Assembly (NCBI GenBank): GCA_013696965.1
Contig: JACCXN010000043.1
Coordinates: 1-14,293, forward strand
Direction of reading: 5' to 3'
Origin: Bacteroidota bacterium
GTDB lineage: Bacteria; Bacteroidota; Bacteroidia; JACCXN01
Length of the DNA stretch: 14,293 nucleotides
The notes below the pieces were generated by a model, which worked only from the letters and a program-made list of their open reading frames with translations, had not been told where the DNA came from and made no database searches. Position numbers and translations under genes: made by a program. The stretch's first letter is position 1; every line of letters starts with the position of its first letter. Shown here in pieces: positions 2,175 through 14,284 of the stretch.

Positions 2175-2202
2175 TTACTTACATCATTAAACTTTAAATT
2201 AT

Positions 2203-2268
2203 ATGTAATAGCCATGCACAAATCTTGCACAAACAGCAATGAAGATAACATGGCGTATTCCATATGAC
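2203..2268 (+). repeat. Dispersed palindromic repeat, unit A
   Basis: ATAGCCATGCAC begins at 2208, and the unit closes with CATGGC, GTATTC and CATATGAC at 2268. GCCATG pairs with CATGGC, and the outer ATATG and TAATA segments find partners in the closing half (with a bulge), so the whole unit can fold as a long hairpin. It opens with ATG TAA at 2203-2208. Confidence 0.8.
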
Positions 2269-2291
2269 AATTAAAAAACAAAAAAAACACT

Positions 2292-2364
2292 TATGAAATA
2301 GCCATGCACGAACCGTTCACAAACGCTAATGAATATAACATGGCTCCCGATAAATCGGGATGAC
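2292..2364 (+). repeat. Dispersed palindromic repeat, unit B
   Basis: Begins with ATG AAA TAG (2292-2300). The core starts at 2297, 89 bp after unit A. The AGCCATG/CATGGCT stem is 7 bp. The outer 3' arm found in other copies is replaced by a separate perfect hairpin, TCCCGAT-AA-ATCGGGA (2345-2360), followed by TGAC. Confidence 0.85.
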
Positions 2365-2388
2365 AATTAACACTTAAATTATATACCT

Positions 2389-2461
2389 ATGAAATAGCCA
2401 TGCACAGAACGTGCGCAAACACGCATGAAGATAACCTGGCGTCCCGATAAATCGGGATGAC
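2389..2461 (+). repeat. Dispersed palindromic repeat, unit C
   Basis: Begins with ATG AAA TAG (2389-2397). The core starts at 2394, 97 bp after unit B. GCCA pairs with TGGC. The same TCCCGATAAATCGGGA hairpin as in unit B is at 2442-2457. The unit is followed by an A-rich spacer that ends in the CATATG start of the gene at 2487. The centre differs from the other copies (CGTG...CACG instead of CGTT...AACG). Confidence 0.85.
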
Positions 2462-2486
2462 AACTAAAAAAACAAATTATCTACAT

Positions 2487-2627
2487 ATGAAATTAAAATC
2501 AAAAAAAACAAAGAAAGTGATGGCTATAATTATGACAGCCATTGGAAGCACTGGGGTTAAAAAAACAAATAGCAAACTCAAGAGAAAAGCTAAGAAATTG
2601 GCAAAACAGGTAGTGAAATCTAAGTAA
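2487..2627 (+). CDS. 46-aa Lys-rich small protein, copy 2
   Basis: A 46-residue basic protein, paralogous to the gene at 2034 (same length, 34 identical positions, no gaps). The first residues are MKLKSKKTKK. The hydrophobic segment VMAIIMTAIGSTGV lies at 11-24 and the basic helix KLKRKAKKLAKQV at 30-42. Differences are mostly conservative (I/L, S/T, K/R), which suggests selection on the protein. The start ATG lies in CATATG directly behind repeat unit C, separated by the A-rich spacer that recurs before the gene at 31. Function is unknown. The tandem arrangement with the 88-aa paralogue suggests a shared role or a local duplication. Confidence 0.7.
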   Translation: MKLKSKKTKKVMAIIMTAIGSTGVKKTNSKLKRKAKKLAKQVVKSK

Positions 2628-2762: not shown

Positions 2763-3029
2763 ATGGAAAACAAAATTAAAAGTATAAAAAGGATAGAAAG
2801 CGCAATTCTAAATACATTGGGAGAATCCGGAGTATTAAAAACAAATAATGCTATTCAGAAAAAAGCCAGGAAATTGGCAAAAGAAGTACGATCACTTCGA
2901 ATTACAAAAAAACAAAAATCAAAAATTGAAGAACAAAAACACATTGTAGAAGAAAAACAAAATGAAGTTTTTGACAGTATTCATTATGCCAAAAGAATAC
3001 AGGAGGCCATTTTGCCTATTGAAAAATAG
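2763..3029 (+). CDS. 88-aa protein: small basic module fused to a SpoIIE-type linker helix, no phosphatase domain
   Basis: Residues 9-43 (KRIESAILNTLGESGVLKTN onward to KKARKLAKEV) align without gaps to the 46-aa proteins at 2034 and 2487. Residues 48-70 are Lys/Glu/Gln-rich and probably helical or coiled coil. Residues 71-85 read DSIHYAKRIQEAILP, nearly identical to the linker just before the catalytic domains of the phosphatases at 3127-5148 (DSINYAKRIQEAILP) and 5289-6353 (ASIHYAKYLQEAILP). The protein stops three residues later, exactly where a phosphatase domain would begin, and no phosphatase coding remains downstream in any frame before the convergent gene. In related phosphatases this segment dimerises and switches activity. 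It is therefore inferred that this protein could form mixed pairs with neighbouring phosphatases, but a gene remnant is an alternative. Confidence 0.75.
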   Translation: MENKIKSIKRIESAILNTLGESGVLKTNNAIQKKARKLAKEVRSLRITKKQKSKIEEQKHIVEEKQNEVFDSIHYAKRIQEAILPIEK

Positions 3030-3126
3030 ATTGAAAGAACCTTAGAAAATTTAAATAGAAAAATGATTTATAGCAACTTCACTTTCCAATTGGAATTTGT
3101 TTTTAATGGGGGAAATAATTCATTTT

Positions 3127-5148
3127 TTACCCCCTAACTCCTATCACACAAACATCATCTACTTGTTCGTGTTTTCCTTTCCATTGTTCAAATTTAGAAT
3201 CAAGGATTTCAGCCTGTTCATGCATCTCTTTTTCCTGGATAGCAATCAATAGTTCCTTAAATTGCGCATATTTAAACTTCTTTCCTTTTTCACCACCAAA
3301 TTGATCGGCATAACCATCGGTGAACAGGTAAAATGTTTCCCCCTTGTTAATTTGAATTGTATGCGTGGTAAAGGATTTATGTTCTGAATATTTTCCAATG
3401 GGTTGTTTATCTGGTTTTATCTCGTTTAATCCTTCTTTAGATAGTATCCATAAGGCATTATTTGCACCGGCCCATTTTAATTCATTTGTAACAACATTAA
3501 AGCTACAGAGTGAAATATCCATTCCGTCCCGAACTTCACTTTCGCTTTTTTCAAAAGTCTCAATCACCAACTCTCTTACCTTATCGAGAATTTTGCCTGG
3601 TTCTGTAATGCCGAACTCTTTTACCGTTCTGTTTAATGCATTAGAGCATACCACACTTACCATAGCTCCCGGAACCCCATGCCCGGTACAATCGGCTGCA
3701 GCTAAAAAAACCAATTGATTTGAAGGAAAATTAAATGATTTATCGCGTTCCATCCAGTAAAAATCGCCAGATACAATGTCTTTTGGTTTATAAAAAATAA
3801 AACTATCGGGTAATAGTTGTTTTACTAAATTATCGGGAGGCAATATGGCCTCCTGTATTCTTTTTGCATAGTTAATGGAATCCGTAATGTCTTTGTTTTT
3901 TCCTTCTATAATTTTTTTCTTTTCGCTTATTTCAATATTGTGAAGATTTAGTAAGGAATTTGCCCTTTTCTTTTGTGCATACCCTTTAATGGCCACAATT
4001 GCCAGAAGCATTACAAGCAAACCACCTCCTGCAACTGACCAACTTATTACTGTTTGTTTTTTAATTTCTGCAAGTTGCAGTTTTTTGTCATTTGTTAAAA
4101 GTGCTATTTCTTTTTCTTTTTTCTCCGTCTCATATTGTGTTTGCATTTCTGCAATTTGATTTGATGATTCAATATTAAACAAGGAATCTTTTACCTGTGA
4201 ATATAATTTATAATAATCAAAAGCTTTAGTGCAATTATCGGTAAGTGAATAGGCATCAGAATAGGCTTGATAGCTTTCCAGAACAATATCTTTAGCTCCG
4301 ATTTCATTGGAAAGATCCAGGGATTTTTGAATATAAATAAACGCGTTTTTATAATCACCCAAACCTGTATAAAGCGATCCGATATTAACAAGAGAGGAAG
4401 CCATGCCAAATTTATCCTGAGATTGTTCCCGTATTTTTAGGGCCTTTTTATGGTATTCCAGTGATTCCCGGAACATTTTACGGTCCAAATAAGTTGAACC
4501 TATATTGCTCAAAATTCCAGCAACTTTATCTTGATCTGCCATCTGCTCTGCGATGGGTAATGCCTTAAGATAATACTCGGTGGCTAATGCATAATTGCTC
4601 TGAAAATAATTAATGTTGCCAATATTAATCAAACATGCAGCTATTCCATTTTTATCACCTTGTTTCTCTCGTATAGTTAAGGATTTTGAATGGTAAGCCA
4701 TGGCCTCAGAATAATTTTTTTGGGCCTCATAAATAATTCCTATATTATTAAAAGAAGAAGCCATTCCATTTAAATCATTAATTTCCTCCAGGATTTTCAT
4801 GCTTTTAAAATGATGGGTTAATGCCACAGAATATTCACCCTGCAAATAATAAATTGCTCCCAATTTGCTTAAAGAGGCTGCAATTGCTACTTTATTATTT
4901 ATTTTTTCCCCCACTGCAAGTGCCTGCTTCGCATATTTTAGTGATTGCAGAGGGTCACTGTATTTATTTTCCCATGCAAGTTCGTTCAAAACCTTGTTTT
5001 TTGTAAAACCATCACTTGTGGTTTTTAATACCTTAAGCAATGAATCTACTTTAATAGGGTCCTGGGCAATCAAACTGTTTGTTGTAAGGTACATGGAAAC
5101 AAAAAGGCAAAAGATTACAAGCAATTTTATTCTCAGGCGGTTAATCAT
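3127..5148 (-). CDS. TPR-repeat, membrane-anchored SpoIIE/PP2C-type Ser/Thr phosphatase
   Basis: 673 aa. Residues 1-29 are a signal peptide or N-terminal membrane segment (cleavage plausible after IAQ). About six TPR motifs follow over residues 88-325, each about 40 residues, with repeated patterns such as NIGxxY and A..Y..K.L.I. A coiled region spans 326-365. One transmembrane helix lies at about 368-388, placing the TPRs outside and the rest in the cytoplasm. The linker DSINYAKRIQEAILP is at 423-437. The catalytic domain runs from about 445 to 673, with metal-binding Asp candidates D462 (SGDFYW), D486 (ADCTGHG), D611 (TDGYADQFGG) and D664/D665 (VDDVCVIG). The likely role is dephosphorylation of a phosphoserine/threonine partner in response to an extracytoplasmic signal. 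No STAS protein or kinase partner is in the window. It follows, on the same strand, the related gene at 5289-6353, 140 bp upstream. Confidence 0.92.
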   Translation of the reverse strand: MINRLRIKLLVIFCLFVSMYLTTNSLIAQDPIKVDSLLKVLKTTSDGFTKNKVLNELAWENKYSDPLQSLKYAKQALAVGEKINNKVAIAASLSKLGAIYYLQGEYSVALTHHFKSMKILEEINDLNGMASSFNNIGIIYEAQKNYSEAMAYHSKSLTIREKQGDKNGIAACLINIGNINYFQSNYALATEYYLKALPIAEQMADQDKVAGILSNIGSTYLDRKMFRESLEYHKKALKIREQSQDKFGMASSLVNIGSLYTGLGDYKNAFIYIQKSLDLSNEIGAKDIVLESYQAYSDAYSLTDNCTKAFDYYKLYSQVKDSLFNIESSNQIAEMQTQYETEKKEKEIALLTNDKKLQLAEIKKQTVISWSVAGGGLLVMLLAIVAIKGYAQKKRANSLLNLHNIEISEKKKIIEGKNKDITDSINYAKRIQEAILPPDNLVKQLLPDSFIFYKPKDIVSGDFYWMERDKSFNFPSNQLVFLAAADCTGHGVPGAMVSVVCSNALNRTVKEFGITEPGKILDKVRELVIETFEKSESEVRDGMDISLCSFNVVTNELKWAGANNALWILSKEGLNEIKPDKQPIGKYSEHKSFTTHTIQINKGETFYLFTDGYADQFGGEKGKKFKYAQFKELLIAIQEKEMHEQAEILDSKFEQWKGKHEQVDDVCVIGVRG

Positions 5149-5288: not shown

Positions 5289-6353
5289 TTAAACTTTCAC
5301 GCCAATCACACATACATCATCCACTTGTTCAAGAATACCTTTCCACTTCTCAAATGTAGAATTTAAAATTTCATTTTGTTCCTGCATGGATTTATTTTGA
5401 ATTGAAAGCAACAATTTTTTAAAATTTGCTGATTTGAATTTTTTGCCATGCTCTCCACCAAACTGATCGGCAAAGCCATCGGTAAAAATATACAGGCTGT
5501 CATTTTTCTGGAGTTCTATACTGTGTGTAGTAAACATTTTATTGACCGCATATTTACCAATTGGCTGTTTGTCTGCTTTAATTTCTATAATAGCATTGTT
5601 GCGGCTAATCCAAAGAGGATTGTTAGCCCCTGCCCAATGAAGCTTATTGCCTTGCAATGCACAAAGGGAAATATCCATTCCATCCTTTACCTCACGCTCA
5701 GACCTTTCAAAAGTAGAAATCACAATTTCACGAACTTTATCCAGAATCTTACCTGGATCTGTAAGTCCATATTCTTTCATTGTCCGGTTAAGTGCATTTG
5801 AACAAACAACACTAACCATTGCCCCTGGAACCCCATGACCAGTACAATCAGCCGCAGCAAAATAAATATTTTTATCGCATTTTTCTACCCAATAAAAATC
5901 ACCCGCTACAATATCCTTTGGTTTATACATGATGAAGGATTCCTGCAAATATTCCTTTACCAATTTATTAGGTGGAAGTATGGCCTCCTGCAAGTATTTT
6001 GCATAATGAATACTGGCAAGAATATCCCTGTTTTTTTCTTCAATAATCTTGTTGCTTTTAGTTAATTCAATTGCAGATTTTTTTTTAATTCGGTATTGAT
6101 TGAATGAAACACCCGCAATTGTGAATAACAAAAACATGGTGAAATAAAAACTATTCCGGTGGGTTTTTTTATAACAAACTATTGTTTCTTGCTCAGCGCC
6201 TACGAAAATATCAGAAAATGTATGATCATCAAAAGCATGCTGGTGTTCATGCATTTTTTTATCTCCTGACTGGTGCTCGTGGTCAGAACAACCCAAATAC
6301 AGAAAGGAAAACAGGAGAAGTAATCCTGTAATTATTTTAGCTTTAAAATCCAC
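5289..6353 (-). CDS. SpoIIE/PP2C-type phosphatase with a short His-rich extracytoplasmic segment
   Basis: 354 aa. The start is GTG at 6353; an in-frame stop lies just upstream and no ATG precedes the signal sequence. Residues 7-21 are hydrophobic and end in a lipobox-like LYLGC (Cys22). Residues 23-65 form a short His-rich segment with H25, H27, H35, H37, H39, H44 and H65. A transmembrane helix follows at about 68-87, so the His-rich part should face the periplasm. The linker ASIHYAKYLQEAILP is at 113-127. The catalytic domain (about 138-354) has D152 (AGDFYW), D169 (ADCTGHG), D292 (TDGFADQFGG) and D345/D346. The His cluster suggests metal sensing, which is an inference. Whether Cys22 is lipidated or the first helix stays uncleaved cannot be told. 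The catalytic domain is closely related to that of the downstream TPR phosphatase. Confidence 0.9.
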   Translation of the reverse strand: MDFKAKIITGLLLLFSFLYLGCSDHEHQSGDKKMHEHQHAFDDHTFSDIFVGAEQETIVCYKKTHRNSFYFTMFLLFTIAGVSFNQYRIKKKSAIELTKSNKIIEEKNRDILASIHYAKYLQEAILPPNKLVKEYLQESFIMYKPKDIVAGDFYWVEKCDKNIYFAAADCTGHGVPGAMVSVVCSNALNRTMKEYGLTDPGKILDKVREIVISTFERSEREVKDGMDISLCALQGNKLHWAGANNPLWISRNNAIIEIKADKQPIGKYAVNKMFTTHSIELQKNDSLYIFTDGFADQFGGEHGKKFKSANFKKLLLSIQNKSMQEQNEILNSTFEKWKGILEQVDDVCVIGVKV

Positions 6354-6670: not shown

Positions 6671-7411
6671 ATGGGAATAGTGAAAGAGGCACATACAATA
6701 AATGAAAATGTAACAGAAGAAAAAAACTTTTTCATTTTTTATAAACCAAAAGACATTGTTAGCGGGGATTTTTACCATGCCTTATCTCATTTTCATAAAG
6801 AGTTAAACAAAGAAATTTTCTATTTGTGTACGGCCGATTGCACTGGTCATGGAGTTCCGGGGGCACTTATGAGTATGATCAGTATTTCCAGACTCAATGA
6901 ATCTATTATTGAAAAACAGCTTGTTCATCCTGATGAAATTCTAAATTATACCAGGGATGGTATTATTGCTTCGCTAAATCCTGAAGGTAGTACAGAAGAA
7001 AGCAAAGATGGTATGGATTGTGTTTTGTGCGCCTATGATTTTGAAAATAAGACCCTAGAATTTGCAGCAGCAAATAACCCCTTATGGCTCATCCGTAACA
7101 ACCAACTAATAGAATACAAAGCAGATAAAATGCCTGTAGGGAAATATGCAGGAGAAATGCGCCCATATACTTTACAAAAAACAGACCTTCAAAAGGGTGA
7201 TTTAATTTATACTTTCACTGATGGTTTTCCTGATCAGTTTGGAGGGGAGAATGGCAAAAAATTCAAATCAGCAAATTTTAAAAAATTACTGCTTTCCATA
7301 GTACATTATTCAATGGAAAAACAAAAAGAAATCTTAAATGATACCTTTGAAAACTGGAAAGGTAATTTGGAACAGGTAGATGATGTATGCATCATTGGTG
7401 TGAAGGTTTAA
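6671..7411 (+). CDS. Stand-alone SpoIIE/PP2C-type phosphatase domain
   Basis: 246 aa. It has no signal peptide, membrane helix, TPR or YAKRIQEAILP linker. After about 20 residues it enters the catalytic domain directly (FYKPKDIVSGDFY at 25-37). Metal-binding Asp candidates are in SGDFY, TADCTGHGVPGA, KDGMD, FTDGFPDQFGG and QVDDVCIIGV, so the enzyme looks intact and cytoplasmic. The C-terminal quarter (from GGENGKKFKSANFKK) is almost the same as in the His-rich phosphatase, including 37 identical bases (7251-7287 against 5413-5449 on the other strand). The N-terminal half (LCTADCTGHG, LMSMISISRLNES) is much more divergent and resembles another SpoIIE subgroup. This suggests recombination or gene conversion. 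It could need a separate linker or sensor partner. Confidence 0.88.
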   Translation: MGIVKEAHTINENVTEEKNFFIFYKPKDIVSGDFYHALSHFHKELNKEIFYLCTADCTGHGVPGALMSMISISRLNESIIEKQLVHPDEILNYTRDGIIASLNPEGSTEESKDGMDCVLCAYDFENKTLEFAAANNPLWLIRNNQLIEYKADKMPVGKYAGEMRPYTLQKTDLQKGDLIYTFTDGFPDQFGGENGKKFKSANFKKLLLSIVHYSMEKQKEILNDTFENWKGNLEQVDDVCIIGVKV

Positions 7412-7641
7412 TTTTCTTAATTCAGAAAATCTCCATTCCGGGTTTTAATTCCTAAATGAAAAATTTGTTCTTGAAAAACCCTGGTATTTAAATCTACTCC
7501 ATTCATGCACTGATTTTTATAAAAGCGATTTAAATTTCAATTCTGTCTTTTTTAGAAATAATTTCATGTCATTTGGGTTATTATTGTTAACTTTAGTTAG
7601 ACTTATCACAAAAAAAACATCTTTCTCCAGCCACTAATTAT

Positions 7642-8097
7642 ATGATTTTAAAAAAAGAACTGATCGAACTGGAATTAGAAATTCCTAATTCTGATTTATT
7701 AAAAACCTCTGTTTCCACTAAAGAAGTCAAGTGGCATATTGATCATTCCCTTAAAGTAATAATTGGAATAGCTAATGCATTAAAAAATTCAAAACCCGAA
7801 GATTTTAAAAGTTCTTTTAATTTAACACGAACCTACATTTTTTTACTCGGTTTTATTCCACGGGGAAAAGGAAAAGCCCCAAAAAGTGTGGTTGCTCAAG
7901 GTGAAATTCAACACTATGAACTAATTGAGCAGTTGAATCAGGCAAAAATAATTTTAAAAAAAATGGATGACTTTCCTGCTAAAAGCCATTTTGACCATCC
8001 CTATTTTGGAAAATTAAACTTAAGGCAAAGTATTGCCTTTTTAGAAATTCATACAAAGCATCATTTGAAAATAATAAGAGATATTATTCAAAAATAA
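7642..8097 (+). CDS. DinB/DUF1569-like small protein
   Basis: 151 aa, mostly helical, with no signal peptide. WHIDHSLKV (31-39), HPYFGKL (119-125) and HTKHHLKII (137-145) match the pattern of the DUF1569 branch of the DinB/YfiT-like four-helix bundle. In that fold three His residues bind a divalent metal; candidates are H35, H137 and H141. The length is normal for the family. The substrate is unknown: family members include thiol-dependent transferases but most are uncharacterised. ATG at 7642 follows an A/T-rich leader. The gene appears monocistronic. Recognition is by motif, not by search. Confidence 0.7.
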   Translation: MILKKELIELELEIPNSDLLKTSVSTKEVKWHIDHSLKVIIGIANALKNSKPEDFKSSFNLTRTYIFLLGFIPRGKGKAPKSVVAQGEIQHYELIEQLNQAKIILKKMDDFPAKSHFDHPYFGKLNLRQSIAFLEIHTKHHLKIIRDIIQK

Positions 8098-8185
8098 AGA
8101 CTTCCTATTGCCAAAACCAAATGAATATGAGTTGAAGGATCATTCTGTTTTGAATTTAACCCTTTAGCGTGGTTTATTGATTATT

Positions 8186-9721
8186 TTATCTTTTATTTAA
8201 AACAACCTTTTTTGTGATAATTTCATTATCGGTTCTGATTGTCATAAAATAATTCCCCGCTGGCTGTGCAGAAAGATCAACAACATGCTTTTTTATGGAA
8301 TGAGTTGAGAAATCTTTTTTTAATACTTGGCTACCAATTATGTTGTTAACTGTTACTGTTGCAATTGAAGTGGAATACTTGCTGAAATCAATTGAAAGAA
8401 TACCATTAACGGAAGGGTTAGGGTAAACAGAAATTGCTTTTTTAACTTCATTGGATTTAATTCCGGTTACCGAAACATTGATTTGTTTGCAGATTTTATC
8501 CTCACATCCATTGGAGTCTGTTACTGTTAAACATGCATTGTAAACTCCCCCATTTACATAATTGTGCGTTATATTGGAGTTTGTATCATCATTTCCATCA
8601 CCAAAATCCCAGTAGTAGCTTAAAAAGCTTCCGGTCGAAACAGAACCATCAAATTCAACCATTTGCTGATTCACACTAAAATTGAAATCAGCTTGTGGTG
8701 CCTCATTTACCAAAACCGAACTTAAAGCAGTATCTGAACATGCCTCATTTGAAGAATAAACGATTAGTTTAATCTCAAGTATGCCATCAATTAAAAAATA
8801 ATGAGAAGGGCTCCAATCGCTAGTGTTTAATGCTGAGCCATCATTAAAATACCAGGCCCAGCTAACAATTGTACCATCAGAGGGATCAACAGAATTATTG
8901 GTTAAAACAAATTCCGCATTTTGACATAAAGGAGATGCATTGTGTGCAAAATCAGCTAAGGGTAACTCATACACATAATATTGCATTGAAATACTATCCT
9001 TGAACTGCATATTGTCCGTTACAACAAGTTTTACATTATATGTGCCAGCAGCGGAATAGAAATGTTTCGGATATTGATCTATGCTTGAAATGCTGTTTCC
9101 AAAATCCCAATTCCAATCTGTTATGGTTGTATTTCCAGATGTAAAAGACAAATCCAAAAAGGATGAAGAATCACCCAGACAAATAAATTGGGTTGCAAAA
9201 TCAGCAGTAACCTGTTTGTTTTGTATTAATTTAAAATCATCAAATGCTAGGTTTCCAACAGATTTATCATAATGGAATTTTAACTTGATAGTATTAAAAT
9301 TCACCTTGTATTTAAAAATAGTTCCGGTTGTTGGAAGATTATTCATGATTGCAATAGTATCCCAATCCGTACCATTGGCAGTTTGCACAACAATTAATGT
9401 ACTAATAGTGTCAATATTTGAGGATCCCTTTATCCAGAAAGAAACTGTATCAGCATATTGAAATTGTGGCGTAATAACCTTTACGTCATCCAATCCAAAT
9501 TTATAGGAATTAGGTCCGCTGGGTCCCGAACTTAAGGTTGATATATAATATGAACCGGTAGAGGCGTTGGTATTGTTCCAGGACACATTCCAACCTGCAG
9601 GAAGTGAATCTATAACTCCTGAGTAATTGTTAAAGTTGTAATCGATTAAAACTGTTTGTGCAGAAAGAAAATGCGTAAACAGAAAAAAAATGGTTAAAAA
9701 CGAAAGTAAAAGTTTTTTCAT
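8186..9721 (-). CDS. Secreted multi-PKD-domain protein with T9SS sorting domain
   Basis: 511 aa. Signal peptide at 1-21 (FLSAQ cleavage region). Residues about 22-168 form a beta-sandwich resembling the choice-of-anchor/jelly-roll domains that precede PKD repeats (FGLDDVKVITPQ; GNLAFDDFKLI). Three PKD domains follow at about 171-251 (WDFGNS, GTYNVKLVVTD), 254-339 (WYFNDGS) and 342-416 (YYWDFGDGND, GVYNACLTVTD). A T9SS type A C-terminal domain spans about 430-511 (SVYPNPSVNG, ending VVLNKR). It is probably exported by type IX secretion for adhesion or surface binding. No catalytic domain is visible. The gene has a TAnnTTTG box at 9750-9757 and a dyad just upstream of it, so it is likely transcribed separately from pth. 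Confidence 0.9.
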   Translation of the reverse strand: MKKLLLSFLTIFFLFTHFLSAQTVLIDYNFNNYSGVIDSLPAGWNVSWNNTNASTGSYYISTLSSGPSGPNSYKFGLDDVKVITPQFQYADTVSFWIKGSSNIDTISTLIVVQTANGTDWDTIAIMNNLPTTGTIFKYKVNFNTIKLKFHYDKSVGNLAFDDFKLIQNKQVTADFATQFICLGDSSSFLDLSFTSGNTTITDWNWDFGNSISSIDQYPKHFYSAAGTYNVKLVVTDNMQFKDSISMQYYVYELPLADFAHNASPLCQNAEFVLTNNSVDPSDGTIVSWAWYFNDGSALNTSDWSPSHYFLIDGILEIKLIVYSSNEACSDTALSSVLVNEAPQADFNFSVNQQMVEFDGSVSTGSFLSYYWDFGDGNDDTNSNITHNYVNGGVYNACLTVTDSNGCEDKICKQINVSVTGIKSNEVKKAISVYPNPSVNGILSIDFSKYSTSIATVTVNNIIGSQVLKKDFSTHSIKKHVVDLSAQPAGNYFMTIRTDNEIITKKVVLNKR

Positions 9722-9825: not shown

Positions 9826-10389
9826 TTAAAGGTTGTTAAAGGTACTCATTGTTCTATCAAGGCCAATGGTAGTAAAGCTCTTGATTAAATCCAAAGCAAA
9901 TGACATTCGGGTTTCAAGCGTTTTTAATTCCTCCTGGTTCCACTTGCCAAGAACGAAATCAACCTGCCTTCCTTTTGGGAAATCACAACCAACCCCAAAT
10001 CTTAGTCTTGCAAACTCTGTAGTTCCCGAAACTTCAATAATGCTTTTTAGCCCATTGTGACCACCATCGCTTCCCTTTCCTCTTAACCTTAATTTACCCA
10101 AAGGAAGGGAAATATCATCTGTAATTACCAATAAATTCTCAATGCCGATTTTTTCCTTTTGAAGGTAATAATTAACCGCCTTCCCGCTCAAATTCATATA
10201 AGTGGTAGGTTTGATAAGTATTAAAGTTCTTCCCTTGCATTTAACCTGGGCAGTAAATGCTAATTTATCCGCCTTGAAAGATACATCAGACGCTTTAACA
10301 AAAGCATCTAAAACATCAAACCCTATATTGTGTCGGGTTGAATTGTATTCTTCTCCTATGTTGCCTAAACCGGCAATCAGATATTTCAC
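9826..10389 (-). CDS. pth: Peptidyl-tRNA hydrolase
   Basis: 187 aa, the usual Pth length. It recycles peptidyl-tRNAs released from ribosomes by hydrolysing the ester bond between peptide and tRNA. The N terminus MKYLIAGLGNIGEEYNSTRHN contains conserved Asn10 and the catalytic His20. Other family landmarks are KPTTYMNLSG (Asn66), the Asp pair in ITDDISLPLG (D91/D92), and GGHNGLKSI (Asn112). All active-site residues are present. The start ATG at 10389 is unambiguous because the core begins four residues later. It lies downstream of rplY in the same direction, a common pairing, but a hairpin terminator separates them, so it may use read-through or its own promoter. Confidence 0.96.
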   Translation of the reverse strand: MKYLIAGLGNIGEEYNSTRHNIGFDVLDAFVKASDVSFKADKLAFTAQVKCKGRTLILIKPTTYMNLSGKAVNYYLQKEKIGIENLLVITDDISLPLGKLRLRGKGSDGGHNGLKSIIEVSGTTEFARLRFGVGCDFPKGRQVDFVLGKWNQEELKTLETRMSFALDLIKSFTTIGLDRTMSTFNNL

Positions 10390-10422
10390 TTAAAAAATTA
10401 TTTGGTGATTCAAAACAAATTA

Positions 10423-10453
10423 AAAACCCCCAGGTAGAAAACAAGGGGGTTTT
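10423..10453 (-). terminator. Rho-independent terminator after rplY
   Basis: AAAACCCCC (10423-10431) pairs perfectly with GGGGGTTTT (10445-10453). On the minus strand the stem is followed by further T residues, and it sits 27 bp past the rplY stop. Confidence 0.8.
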
Positions 10454-10479
10454 AATTGTATCAGAAATTTTTACTTGAA

Positions 10480-11073
10480 TTATTTCTTTTTAGCACCTGC
10501 TGCTGGGGCTGCTGCTGCTGCAGTATCCATTCCACGTTTTCCTTTAACGGTTGCAACTACTGTGCTTGGAGAATTAAGAATAATCAGTTTTTTAACAGAA
10601 ATATCTTTTACTCTCACAATACCACCTACCTGAAGGTTTTCCACATTTACTTCAATTGAATCTGGTAAATCGCCAGGCAAAGCTCTAACTTTAAGTAAAC
10701 GTTGTTTTTTAATTAATTTACCCCCCGCTCTAACGCCCACAGCTGTTCCGATTAAGTTCACAGGAATGTCAATTTTGGCAACTTTATCTTCAAAAAGTTG
10801 AATAAAATCCACGTGAAGAATATTGTCATTTACCGGATGGAACTGAGCTTCCTGCAATGCTGCACTGTATTCTTTTCCATTTACATTTAATTTTACCAAA
10901 TGGGCATCGGGAGAATAAATAAGGTCTTTAAATTCCTTTGAATCTGCACTGAAATGGATTTGTTCGGTGCCTCCGTAAAGTACACATGGAATTTGACCGT
11001 TTCTTCTGATTGCTTTTGCATCTTTTTTCCCTACGTTCTCTCTTGGAGAACCGCTAATAGATACTGTTTTCAT
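10480..11073 (-). CDS. rplY: Ribosomal protein L25, long (CTC) type
   Basis: 197 aa. A 5S rRNA-binding protein of the large ribosomal subunit. The N-terminal L25 domain (1 to about 90) starts MKTVSISGSPRENVGKKDAK, with the typical RRNGQIPCVLYGG motif. The C-terminal TL5/CTC beta domain (about 95-180) contains DIPVNLIGTAVGVRAGGKL and the LPGDLPDSIEVNVENLQVG motif. The Ala/Lys-rich tail ends in AAGAKKK. The length fits the two-domain CTC form rather than the short enterobacterial L25. It lies 33 bp downstream of prs, so the two are probably co-transcribed, and it ends in a strong terminator. The leader is A-rich (AAAACAAATT before ATG). Confidence 0.95.
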   Translation of the reverse strand: MKTVSISGSPRENVGKKDAKAIRRNGQIPCVLYGGTEQIHFSADSKEFKDLIYSPDAHLVKLNVNGKEYSAALQEAQFHPVNDNILHVDFIQLFEDKVAKIDIPVNLIGTAVGVRAGGKLIKKQRLLKVRALPGDLPDSIEVNVENLQVGGIVRVKDISVKKLIILNSPSTVVATVKGKRGMDTAAAAAPAAGAKKK

Positions 11074-11106
11074 AATTTGTTTTTATTTATTGATTATTAA
11101 TTACTC

Positions 11107-12039
11107 TTAAAAAATAAAATGTGGGCTTATTGATTCACATTCTACCACTCTTTTTATTACATCCGAAAATAGATGTCCTACTGTTAATACTTTTACCTTA
11201 TCACTTTGCTTGCTCAAAGGAATTGTATCGGTTACAATGATTTCTTTTAAAACTGAATTTTCAATACGTTCGTATGCTTTACCTGAAAAAATGGCGTGTG
11301 TGCATACAGCTCTTACACTACTGGCGCCCTTGTCCATCATTAACTGGGCAGCAGTGGTTAAGGTTCCTGCGGTATCGCATAAATCATCAACCAAAACTAT
11401 ATCGCGGCCTTCTACATCTCCAATAACGGTCATGCTGTGAATTTCGTTTGCCTTTTTTCTTTGCTTATAACAAATTGCCATTTCTGCATCTAAAAATGTA
11501 GCATAGGCATTGGCCCTTTTAGTCCCACCCGTATCTGGTGTGGCTATGGTAAGGTTTGGAAGGTTAAGACCTTTTAAATAAGGGATAAAAATCGAGGAAG
11601 AATATAAATGATCAACAGGAACCTCAAAAAATCCCTGAATCTGATCTGCATGTAAATCCATTGTCATTATCCTGGTAACTCCGGCAGCGGTTAGCAAATT
11701 TGCTACTAATTTTGCACCAATGGAAACTCTGGGTTTATCTTTTCTATCCTGGCGTGCATAACCAAAATAAGGCATAACAGCCACAATGTTTTTTGCTGAA
11801 GCTCTTTTTGCTGCATCAATAAGCAAAAGAAGTTCAAAAAGATTATCGGCAGGAGTAAAAGTGGATTGAATAATAAAAACATCATTTCCTCTTACTGTTT
11901 CCTCAAAAGAAGGTTGAATTTCACCATCACTGAATTTTGATACAATTACATTACCTAATTCAGCACCGTATTCAGCAGCTATTTTTTCAGCCAAATATCT
12001 TGAAGCTGTACCCGCAAAAAATTTTACCAGTGGTTTCAT
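11107..12039 (-). CDS. prs: Ribose-phosphate pyrophosphokinase (PRPP synthetase)
   Basis: 310 aa from the chosen start. Makes PRPP from ribose 5-phosphate and ATP for nucleotide, His and Trp synthesis. Landmarks: KFFAGTASRYLAEKIA near the N terminus, FSDGEIQPSFEETVRG (36-51), YARQDRKDKPR ATP-binding loop (94-104), TMDLHADQIQGFF (126-138, metal-binding His130), and the PRPP loop DIVLVDDLCDTAGT (213-226). The frame stays open upstream to 12261, but that extension runs through the tRNA gene and cannot be real. Of two near ATGs (12054 and 12039), 12039 fits the usual length. It also leaves about 18 nt of leader behind the TACTTTTG box, whereas 12054 would be nearly leaderless. Upstream of rplY in the same direction. 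Confidence 0.95.
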   Translation of the reverse strand: MKPLVKFFAGTASRYLAEKIAAEYGAELGNVIVSKFSDGEIQPSFEETVRGNDVFIIQSTFTPADNLFELLLLIDAAKRASAKNIVAVMPYFGYARQDRKDKPRVSIGAKLVANLLTAAGVTRIMTMDLHADQIQGFFEVPVDHLYSSSIFIPYLKGLNLPNLTIATPDTGGTKRANAYATFLDAEMAICYKQRKKANEIHSMTVIGDVEGRDIVLVDDLCDTAGTLTTAAQLMMDKGASSVRAVCTHAIFSGKAYERIENSVLKEIIVTDTIPLSKQSDKVKVLTVGHLFSDVIKRVVECESISPHFIF

Positions 12040-12063
12040 TTGATGATTTTTCATAAAGGGTAG

Positions 12064-12071
12064 CAAAAGTA
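12064..12071 (-). promoter_or_regulatory. TAnnTTTG -7 box of prs
   Basis: TACTTTTG on the minus strand matches the Bacteroidota -7 consensus. Transcription starting about 7 nt downstream would leave a short leader before the ATG at 12039, which supports that start over the upstream in-frame extension. Confidence 0.5.
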
Positions 12072-12140
12072 TGATTATTCCACAAATTATACTAAATTTA
12101 TTGCAACAATCTATTCTATTAAAACATTTTTTTTTGATTT

Positions 12141-12173
12141 TTGCTTTAAGTACGGCTAAATTTAATACTTTCG
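12141..12173 (+). promoter_or_regulatory. Promoter of tRNA-Leu
   Basis: TTG at 12141-12143 and TACTTTCG at 12166-12173 (one mismatch to TAnnTTTG) are separated by 22 bp. The tRNA begins 14 bp further on, the expected distance for a short 5' leader. It is divergent from the prs promoter. Confidence 0.45.
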
Positions 12174-12187
12174 CAGTCCAATTATTT

Positions 12188-12267
12188 GCCCAGTTGGCGG
12201 AATTGGTAGACGCGCTGGTCTCAAACACCAGTGAGAAATCGTGCCGGTTCGACTCCGGCACTGGGTA
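12188..12267 (+). tRNA. tRNA-Leu (anticodon CAA)
   Basis: 80 nt. The acceptor stem GCCCAGT (12188-12194) pairs with ACTGGGT (12260-12266) with a terminal G-T; the discriminator is A12267. The D arm holds GGCGGAATTGGTAGACGC. The anticodon stem CTGGT/ACCAG encloses CTCAAAC with anticodon CAA, which reads UUG. A class II extra arm follows, then the T arm GCCGG TTCGACT CCGGC. CCA is not encoded. Class II form plus anticodon makes this leucine. Confidence 0.95.
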
Positions 12268-13879: not shown

Positions 13880-14131
13880 TTTCTAAATGTTTTAGTTTTT
13901 ATTTCCTTAACCTGATGAATTTGGTTAACACTGTTTTTAATTACTTCCACACTATAGGTTAAGTAAAGCCTTATCCCATTCATCAGTATGATTAATAGCT
14001 ATTAAAAAATCTGCCAGAATAAGGTTGGTATAAACAGGGCTATTCAGAAGAAGACAAAAACATTCTTTTCCCAATTAGGAGGATTTTTTTCTTTTTGGGA
14101 AATTCGGCAAAACCAATCTTTTGACCATTTT
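13880..14131. other. 252-bp upstream region, no confident gene
   Basis: A/T-rich. On the minus strand 13952-14074 is open for 40 codons from a TTG, and its last part (VYTNLILADFLIAINHTDEW onward) reads like a real protein tail, but there is no ATG and no support. TTCCCAA and TTGGGAA around 14068-14101 could pair weakly. Confidence 0.35.
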
Positions 14132-14196
14132 ATGAAATAGCCATGCACCAAACGTTCACAAACGCTAATGAATATAACCTGGCTATACCATATGAC
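14132..14196 (+). repeat. Dispersed palindromic repeat, unit D
   Basis: ATG AAA TAG at 14132-14140, then core ATAGCCATGCAC through TGGCTAT and CATATGAC. ATAGCCA pairs with TGGCTAT. It differs from unit E at only a few positions, and the 5' CATATG is missing (CATTTTATG instead). Confidence 0.85.
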
Positions 14197-14216
14197 TCTA
14201 AAAAACAAATTATACA

Positions 14217-14284
14217 CATATGAAATAGCCATGCACGAACCGTTCACAAACGCTAATGAATATAACCTGGCTATACCATATGAC
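14217..14284 (+). repeat. Dispersed palindromic repeat, unit E
   Basis: The most complete copy. CATATGAAATAGCCA (14217-14231) is an inverted repeat of TGGCTATACCATATG (14268-14282) with 13 of 15 matches. It contains CGTT-CACA-AACG as a central small stem. It begins 88 bp after unit D and is followed by an A-rich run cut by the window end, so a gene start like those at 31 and 2487 may lie just outside. Confidence 0.88.

Follow-up and report, generated by a model that had tools for sequence, protein, structure and literature searches.

The locus raises the question of why a small protein should end in the switch linker of SpoIIE/RsbU-type phosphatases and carry no phosphatase. In PPM phosphatases of the RsbU/RsbP type, the switch is under the control of a helical linker that precedes the SpoIIE-type domain and assembles into a coiled coil (PMC12143880). 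The protein in question, ORF C, is encoded in the window (the whole 14,293-nt stretch of DNA analysed) along with the following genes.

2034 to 2174, + strand: ORF A, a 46-residue basic protein, paralogous to residues 1-42 of ORF C
2487 to 2627, + strand: ORF B, a 46-residue basic protein, also paralogous to residues 1-42 of ORF C
2763 to 3029, + strand: ORF C, an 88-residue linker-only protein, in which a small basic protein is fused to a phosphatase-type linker
3127 to 5148, - strand: TPR-membrane-linker-SpoIIE phosphatase in a single chain, with linker DSINYAKRIQEAILPP (PF07228, E 1e-19)
5289 to 6353, - strand: membrane-linker-SpoIIE phosphatase, with linker ASIHYAKYLQEAILPP (PF07228, E 5e-18)
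6671 to 7411, + strand: stand-alone, linker-less SpoIIE-type phosphatase (PF07228, E 1e-19), the proposed catalytic subunit of a split system

The two halves of ORF C

ORF C is a real reading frame, whose product ends in ...VFDSIHYAKRIQEAILPIEK* (end also given as DSIHYAKRIQEAILPIEK). The initial annotation described it as a protein of 88 residues that ends at the linker motif and has no phosphatase domain. This was confirmed: the stop codon lies 8 codons past the motif, no PF07228 match was found in ORF C at up to E 1, and the catalytic domain of SpoIIE/RsbU-type phosphatases is thus missing. All Pfam matches obtained with ORF C were under the cut-off. The two halves of the protein differ in origin, with residues 1-42 corresponding to a basic protein and residues 43-88 to a phosphatase-type linker. 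Residues 41-88 are 79% identical (E 5e-18) to a linker encoded elsewhere in the same genome, so the motif match is not due to chance.

Within the genome, this linker is most similar to the C-terminus of a TPR-membrane protein from contig C94 (79%) and next to that of the adjacent protein (70%); both stop right past the linker without a phosphatase. The annotation had likened the linker to those of the two neighbouring phosphatases. Linkers DSINYAKRIQEAILPP and ASIHYAKYLQEAILPP do precede both SpoIIE domains, but the nearest relatives of ORF C are these phosphatase-less TPR proteins. They have a TPR-membrane-linker architecture and their own tail helix just past the motif, and we call them 'linker-tail' proteins. 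The annotation had named continuation of all relatives into a phosphatase as evidence against its reading; this was not observed, as the closest ones end just past the motif.

ORFs A and B code for lysine-rich proteins that are 74% identical, and their codon differences comprise 14 synonymous and 12 nonsynonymous changes. Based on this synonymous excess (NG86 dN/dS about 0.08), they are probably real genes. No clear relative of either was found among 395 Bacteroidia genomes, nor any family match. Window positions 2194-2497 and 14127-14272 harbour units of a dispersed repeat of ~96 nt (CATGCAC...AACATGGC...CCCGATAAATCGGGATGACAA), with 56 more matches in the same genome, several of them at contig ends. 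A 15-nt inverted repeat, GGGTGTTTAGGAATA / TATTTCTAAACACCC, at 2639-2730 flanks the stretch that separates ORF B from ORF C and looks like a small element or hairpin.

Origin and fate of ORF C

Comparison with the C94 contig divides the ORF C region as follows.

2763 to 2888, + strand: N-terminal half of ORF C, a third copy of the basic-protein family of ORFs A and B, 44% identical to ORF A
2889 to 3063, + strand: duplicate of the 3'-terminal part of linker-tail gene C94:7688-9088 (- strand), spanning the linker, the alpha0 motif, the broken tail and beyond
3003 to 3010, + strand: patch GAGGCCAT, shared with the neighbouring phosphatase genes and different from C94
3027 to 3029, + strand: TAG stop codon (TTT in the source gene), with a 1-nt deletion ~10 bases later, at about 3036-3039

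With ~90% DNA identity, the linker of ORF C is a copy of the C94 gene's 3' end, 15 differences being present in the 138 nt ahead of TAG. Homology starts abruptly at 2889 and extends beyond both the ORF C stop and the source gene's own stop codon, and a protein profile of the linker plus tail scores the window segment across TAG at 88 bits. From these sequence comparisons we conclude that ORF C arose as a recent chimeric copy: ~175 bp from the 3' terminus of a sensor gene were duplicated behind a small basic-protein gene, after which the tail helix was lost through the TAG codon and the 1-nt deletion. The patch at 3003-3010 resembles the outcome of a short gene conversion. That ORF C might be a truncated neighbouring phosphatase was rejected, as its linker DNA is far closer to the C94 linker-tail gene, this one short patch excepted. 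Compared with linker-tail proteins, ORF C retains the YAKRIQ-motif linker without a phosphatase domain. It has no sensor part or membrane helix before the linker, the homology to the sensor gene beginning only at 2889, and no tail helix after LLP owing to the TAG at 3027 and the deletion.

Relative to the source, the copied segment carries 8 nonsynonymous and 3 synonymous differences, or 5 and 3 without the patch (NG86 and plain counts), over only 46 codons, too few to tell weak constraint from none. With the second C94 gene as the outgroup, all 8 amino-acid differences are assigned to the ORF C lineage. They include one Ile to Lys change in the linker, and the core motif DSIHYAKRIQ is unaltered. 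Purifying selection on these 46 codons is not evident. The ORF C fusion is present in this one genome and absent from every other genome searched.

ORF C might nevertheless be a functional, soluble linker-only regulator that forms mixed coiled coils with the linkers of phosphatases or sensors and thereby activates, inhibits or titrates them. The frame is intact over 88 codons with an unaltered core, and the genes of the stand-alone phosphatase and of two linked ones are found in the same region. Nevertheless, the truncated tail followed by a deletion, the balance of nonsynonymous over synonymous changes, the Ile to Lys replacement in the linker and the restriction to one genome make this reading unlikely. 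ORF C is probably a decaying copy rather than a selected gene; if translated, it could act as a soluble competitor, but this is less likely than decay.

The annotation also called for a search for other short proteins ending at the motif. We found a frame of 49 codons without ATG (genome G188), one of 70 residues (G142) and one of 50 residues that apparently follows a frameshift (G009). Their N-termini are unrelated or they look like remnants, and a conserved family of linker-only proteins was thus rejected. The G188 frame (G188:C33:22000-27000, locus L183, about 2020-2170, - strand) is a linker-tail remnant located directly upstream of a stand-alone phosphatase gene, apparently a leftover after loss of the sensor part.

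Linker-tail sensors and the stand-alone phosphatase

The linker-tail profile has the consensus EEKQKEILDSIHYAKRIQxSLLPTEKYIxKxLxRLK, then stop. The linker plus tail profile retrieved many proteins of ~400-600 residues composed of TPR repeats or another sensor followed by the linker and the end of the chain. The motif is near invariant across them, and their genes are often clustered in tandem arrays, which reach a size of eight linker-bearing frames. In the predicted structure of the C94 protein, TPR helices are followed by a continuous helix (335-438) that comprises both the membrane segment and the linker. This helix is interrupted at LLP, and residues 442-452 form a tail helix. The TPR sensor part resembles that of FimS-like TPR-membrane sensor kinases (NCBIfam NF053520, E 3e-26), but the linker-tail protein has no output domain and ends instead in a phosphatase-type linker and tail helix. 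The sensor module of the phosphatase encoded at 5289-6353 is found as a linker-tail protein in genome G083 (L186:2821-3213). The same module can thus be joined to a phosphatase or to a linker-tail end, which indicates that the outputs are exchangeable. The second linker-tail gene of the genome under study (L116, G000:C94:1000-18000, 8050-9677, - strand) consists of two overlapping frames and is frameshifted or misassembled, and only the linker-tail gene at 6686-8047 of that region is intact.

As the annotation had stated, the protein encoded at 6671-7411 lacks exactly the linker piece. It has a SpoIIE domain with a predicted PPM fold (Foldseek best hit 6k4e, E 8e-16; nearest to SiaA-PP2C), and its model begins at beta1, with no in-chain linker helix before the domain. 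It belongs to a distinct family of proteins of 232-248 residues whose N-terminus is located directly at the first beta strand. The profile of this family detected exactly one gene in each of 16 genomes among 247 Bacteroidia, with E values no higher than 3e-126 and frames of 236-277 codons; the matches that follow, from E 2e-109 upwards, are in longer frames. In a tree, the 19 known stand-alone members are separated from 61 linked domains by a branch with a support of 97. All 19 have in-frame stop codons close upstream of the gene, and hence no linker is encoded there.

The closest solved fold is that of SiaA of Pseudomonas aeruginosa (NCBIfam NF038263, PDB 6k4e), a single membrane protein. Its family model spans both halves, ORF C covering positions 370-428 and the stand-alone protein 436-656, with scores far under the family cut-off of 700 bits. 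These halves are complementary, as are the predicted folds of the C94 linker-tail protein and the stand-alone phosphatase. Another stand-alone PPM phosphatase without a linker, RsbX of Bacillus (PDB 3w40), is also a fold match but not the nearest.

Each of the 16 sampled genomes that encode the stand-alone phosphatase also has linker-tail genes, as judged from profile coverage through the tail for G231 and the intact G188 gene and from inspection of the sequences for the others. Conversely, whole-tail coverage was found in none of 56 comparison genomes with linked phosphatases only and no stand-alone gene, for G100, G145 and G219 among the matches listed; these 56 were mostly chosen for strong phosphatase or linker signals, and profile searches may miss divergent tails. 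Short frames fetched from them all continue into a phosphatase. Fifteen of the 56 come from families that also hold positive genomes, and for these the match list extended to 5e-11; at another 17 doubtful loci, every frame is linked. In the six families that hold both states the agreement is perfect (chance p about 2e-5 to 3e-5). In an out-of-sample test of three genomes chosen for a linker-tail on the fetched contig, the stand-alone gene was found in all three. The genomes surveyed are a sample.

In eight genomes a linker-tail gene immediately precedes the stand-alone gene on the same strand, in apparent operons, with a gap from stop to ATG of 10-36 nt in seven of them. In G188 the gene upstream of the stand-alone gene is reduced to the linker remnant, in G245 the order is reversed, and in six genomes the two genes are apart. 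The genes of prs, ribosomal protein L25 and pth (9826-12261) adjoin the stand-alone phosphatase region of the window; in a genome of another family (L189, G034:C41, 717-2849), they adjoin a linker-tail array with a stand-alone phosphatase.

The two partners might be co-inherited without binding each other, the phosphatase being constitutive like RsbX and the sensors having other partners. RsbX is not known to have linker-tail partners. The stand-alone genes form one clade and often share an apparent operon with a linker-tail gene, which could account for part of the co-occurrence. This explanation is rather improbable, since both genes are kept even where they are far apart and both states switch together within six families. 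That the linked SpoIIE phosphatases in the same cell are the main partners of linker-tail proteins, which would tune them as mixed dimers, would fit with the similarity of the linkers and the many linked phosphatases of these genomes but is very doubtful given the lack of observed linker-tails, among the matches listed, in the 56 genomes that have linked phosphatases only.

A putative split phosphatase

Based on the architectures, co-occurrence, gene order and predicted complementarity described above, we propose, with a probability of roughly two in three, that there is a split SpoIIE/RsbU-type phosphatase whose sensors act in trans, and that ORF C is a stray and probably decaying copy of one of its halves. 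As the sequences show, the sensor proteins comprise TPR repeats or a different sensor part, then a membrane helix, the linker with its YAKRIQxxLLP helix and a short tail helix, and the catalytic domain, devoid of a linker, is encoded by a separate single-copy gene. The sensors would dimerize via their linkers, and the linker helix would dock in trans on the switch of the stand-alone phosphatase as the RsbU linker does in cis. In RsbU, linker and enzyme form one chain, in contrast with the separate genes found here. Many sensors would thus feed one catalytic subunit.

As linker-tail proteins have a linker but no enzyme, and the stand-alone enzyme has no linker, docking in trans, with several membrane sensors per catalytic subunit, appears to be the simplest reading. 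Whereas architecture, co-occurrence, gene order and complementarity are seen in the data, we infer binding, the direction of control and the role of the tail helix. The tie between the linker-tail and stand-alone genes argues for the stand-alone enzyme, rather than the linked phosphatases, as the main partner. Nevertheless, linked phosphatases or other partners could be the targets of linker-tail proteins, and the separation of the genes in six genomes also speaks against the proposal. The idea of the initial annotation that phosphatase-less linkers act on phosphatases thus fits the general pattern (16 of 16 genomes against 0 of 56 among the matches listed, three of three in the additional test, apparent operons), but ORF C itself, copied recently and only in part, with a truncated tail and in one genome, is a weak case for it. 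A search of the open-access literature yielded no paper on a split SpoIIE phosphatase; one may exist elsewhere.

In the SpoIIE/RsbU linker mechanism as described, sensor and enzyme share a single chain. We somewhat favour the view that some Bacteroidia have a hub-and-spoke arrangement in which arrays of sensors ending in a switch linker share one soluble catalytic subunit, in which case ORF C would be a natural soluble competitor at the docking site. If the switch helix is provided by the sensors in trans, a single phosphatase can integrate many signals, and switching could be studied simply by supplying or withdrawing a separate helix. This would also give a function to many TPR proteins of Bacteroidia that resemble sensors without an output.
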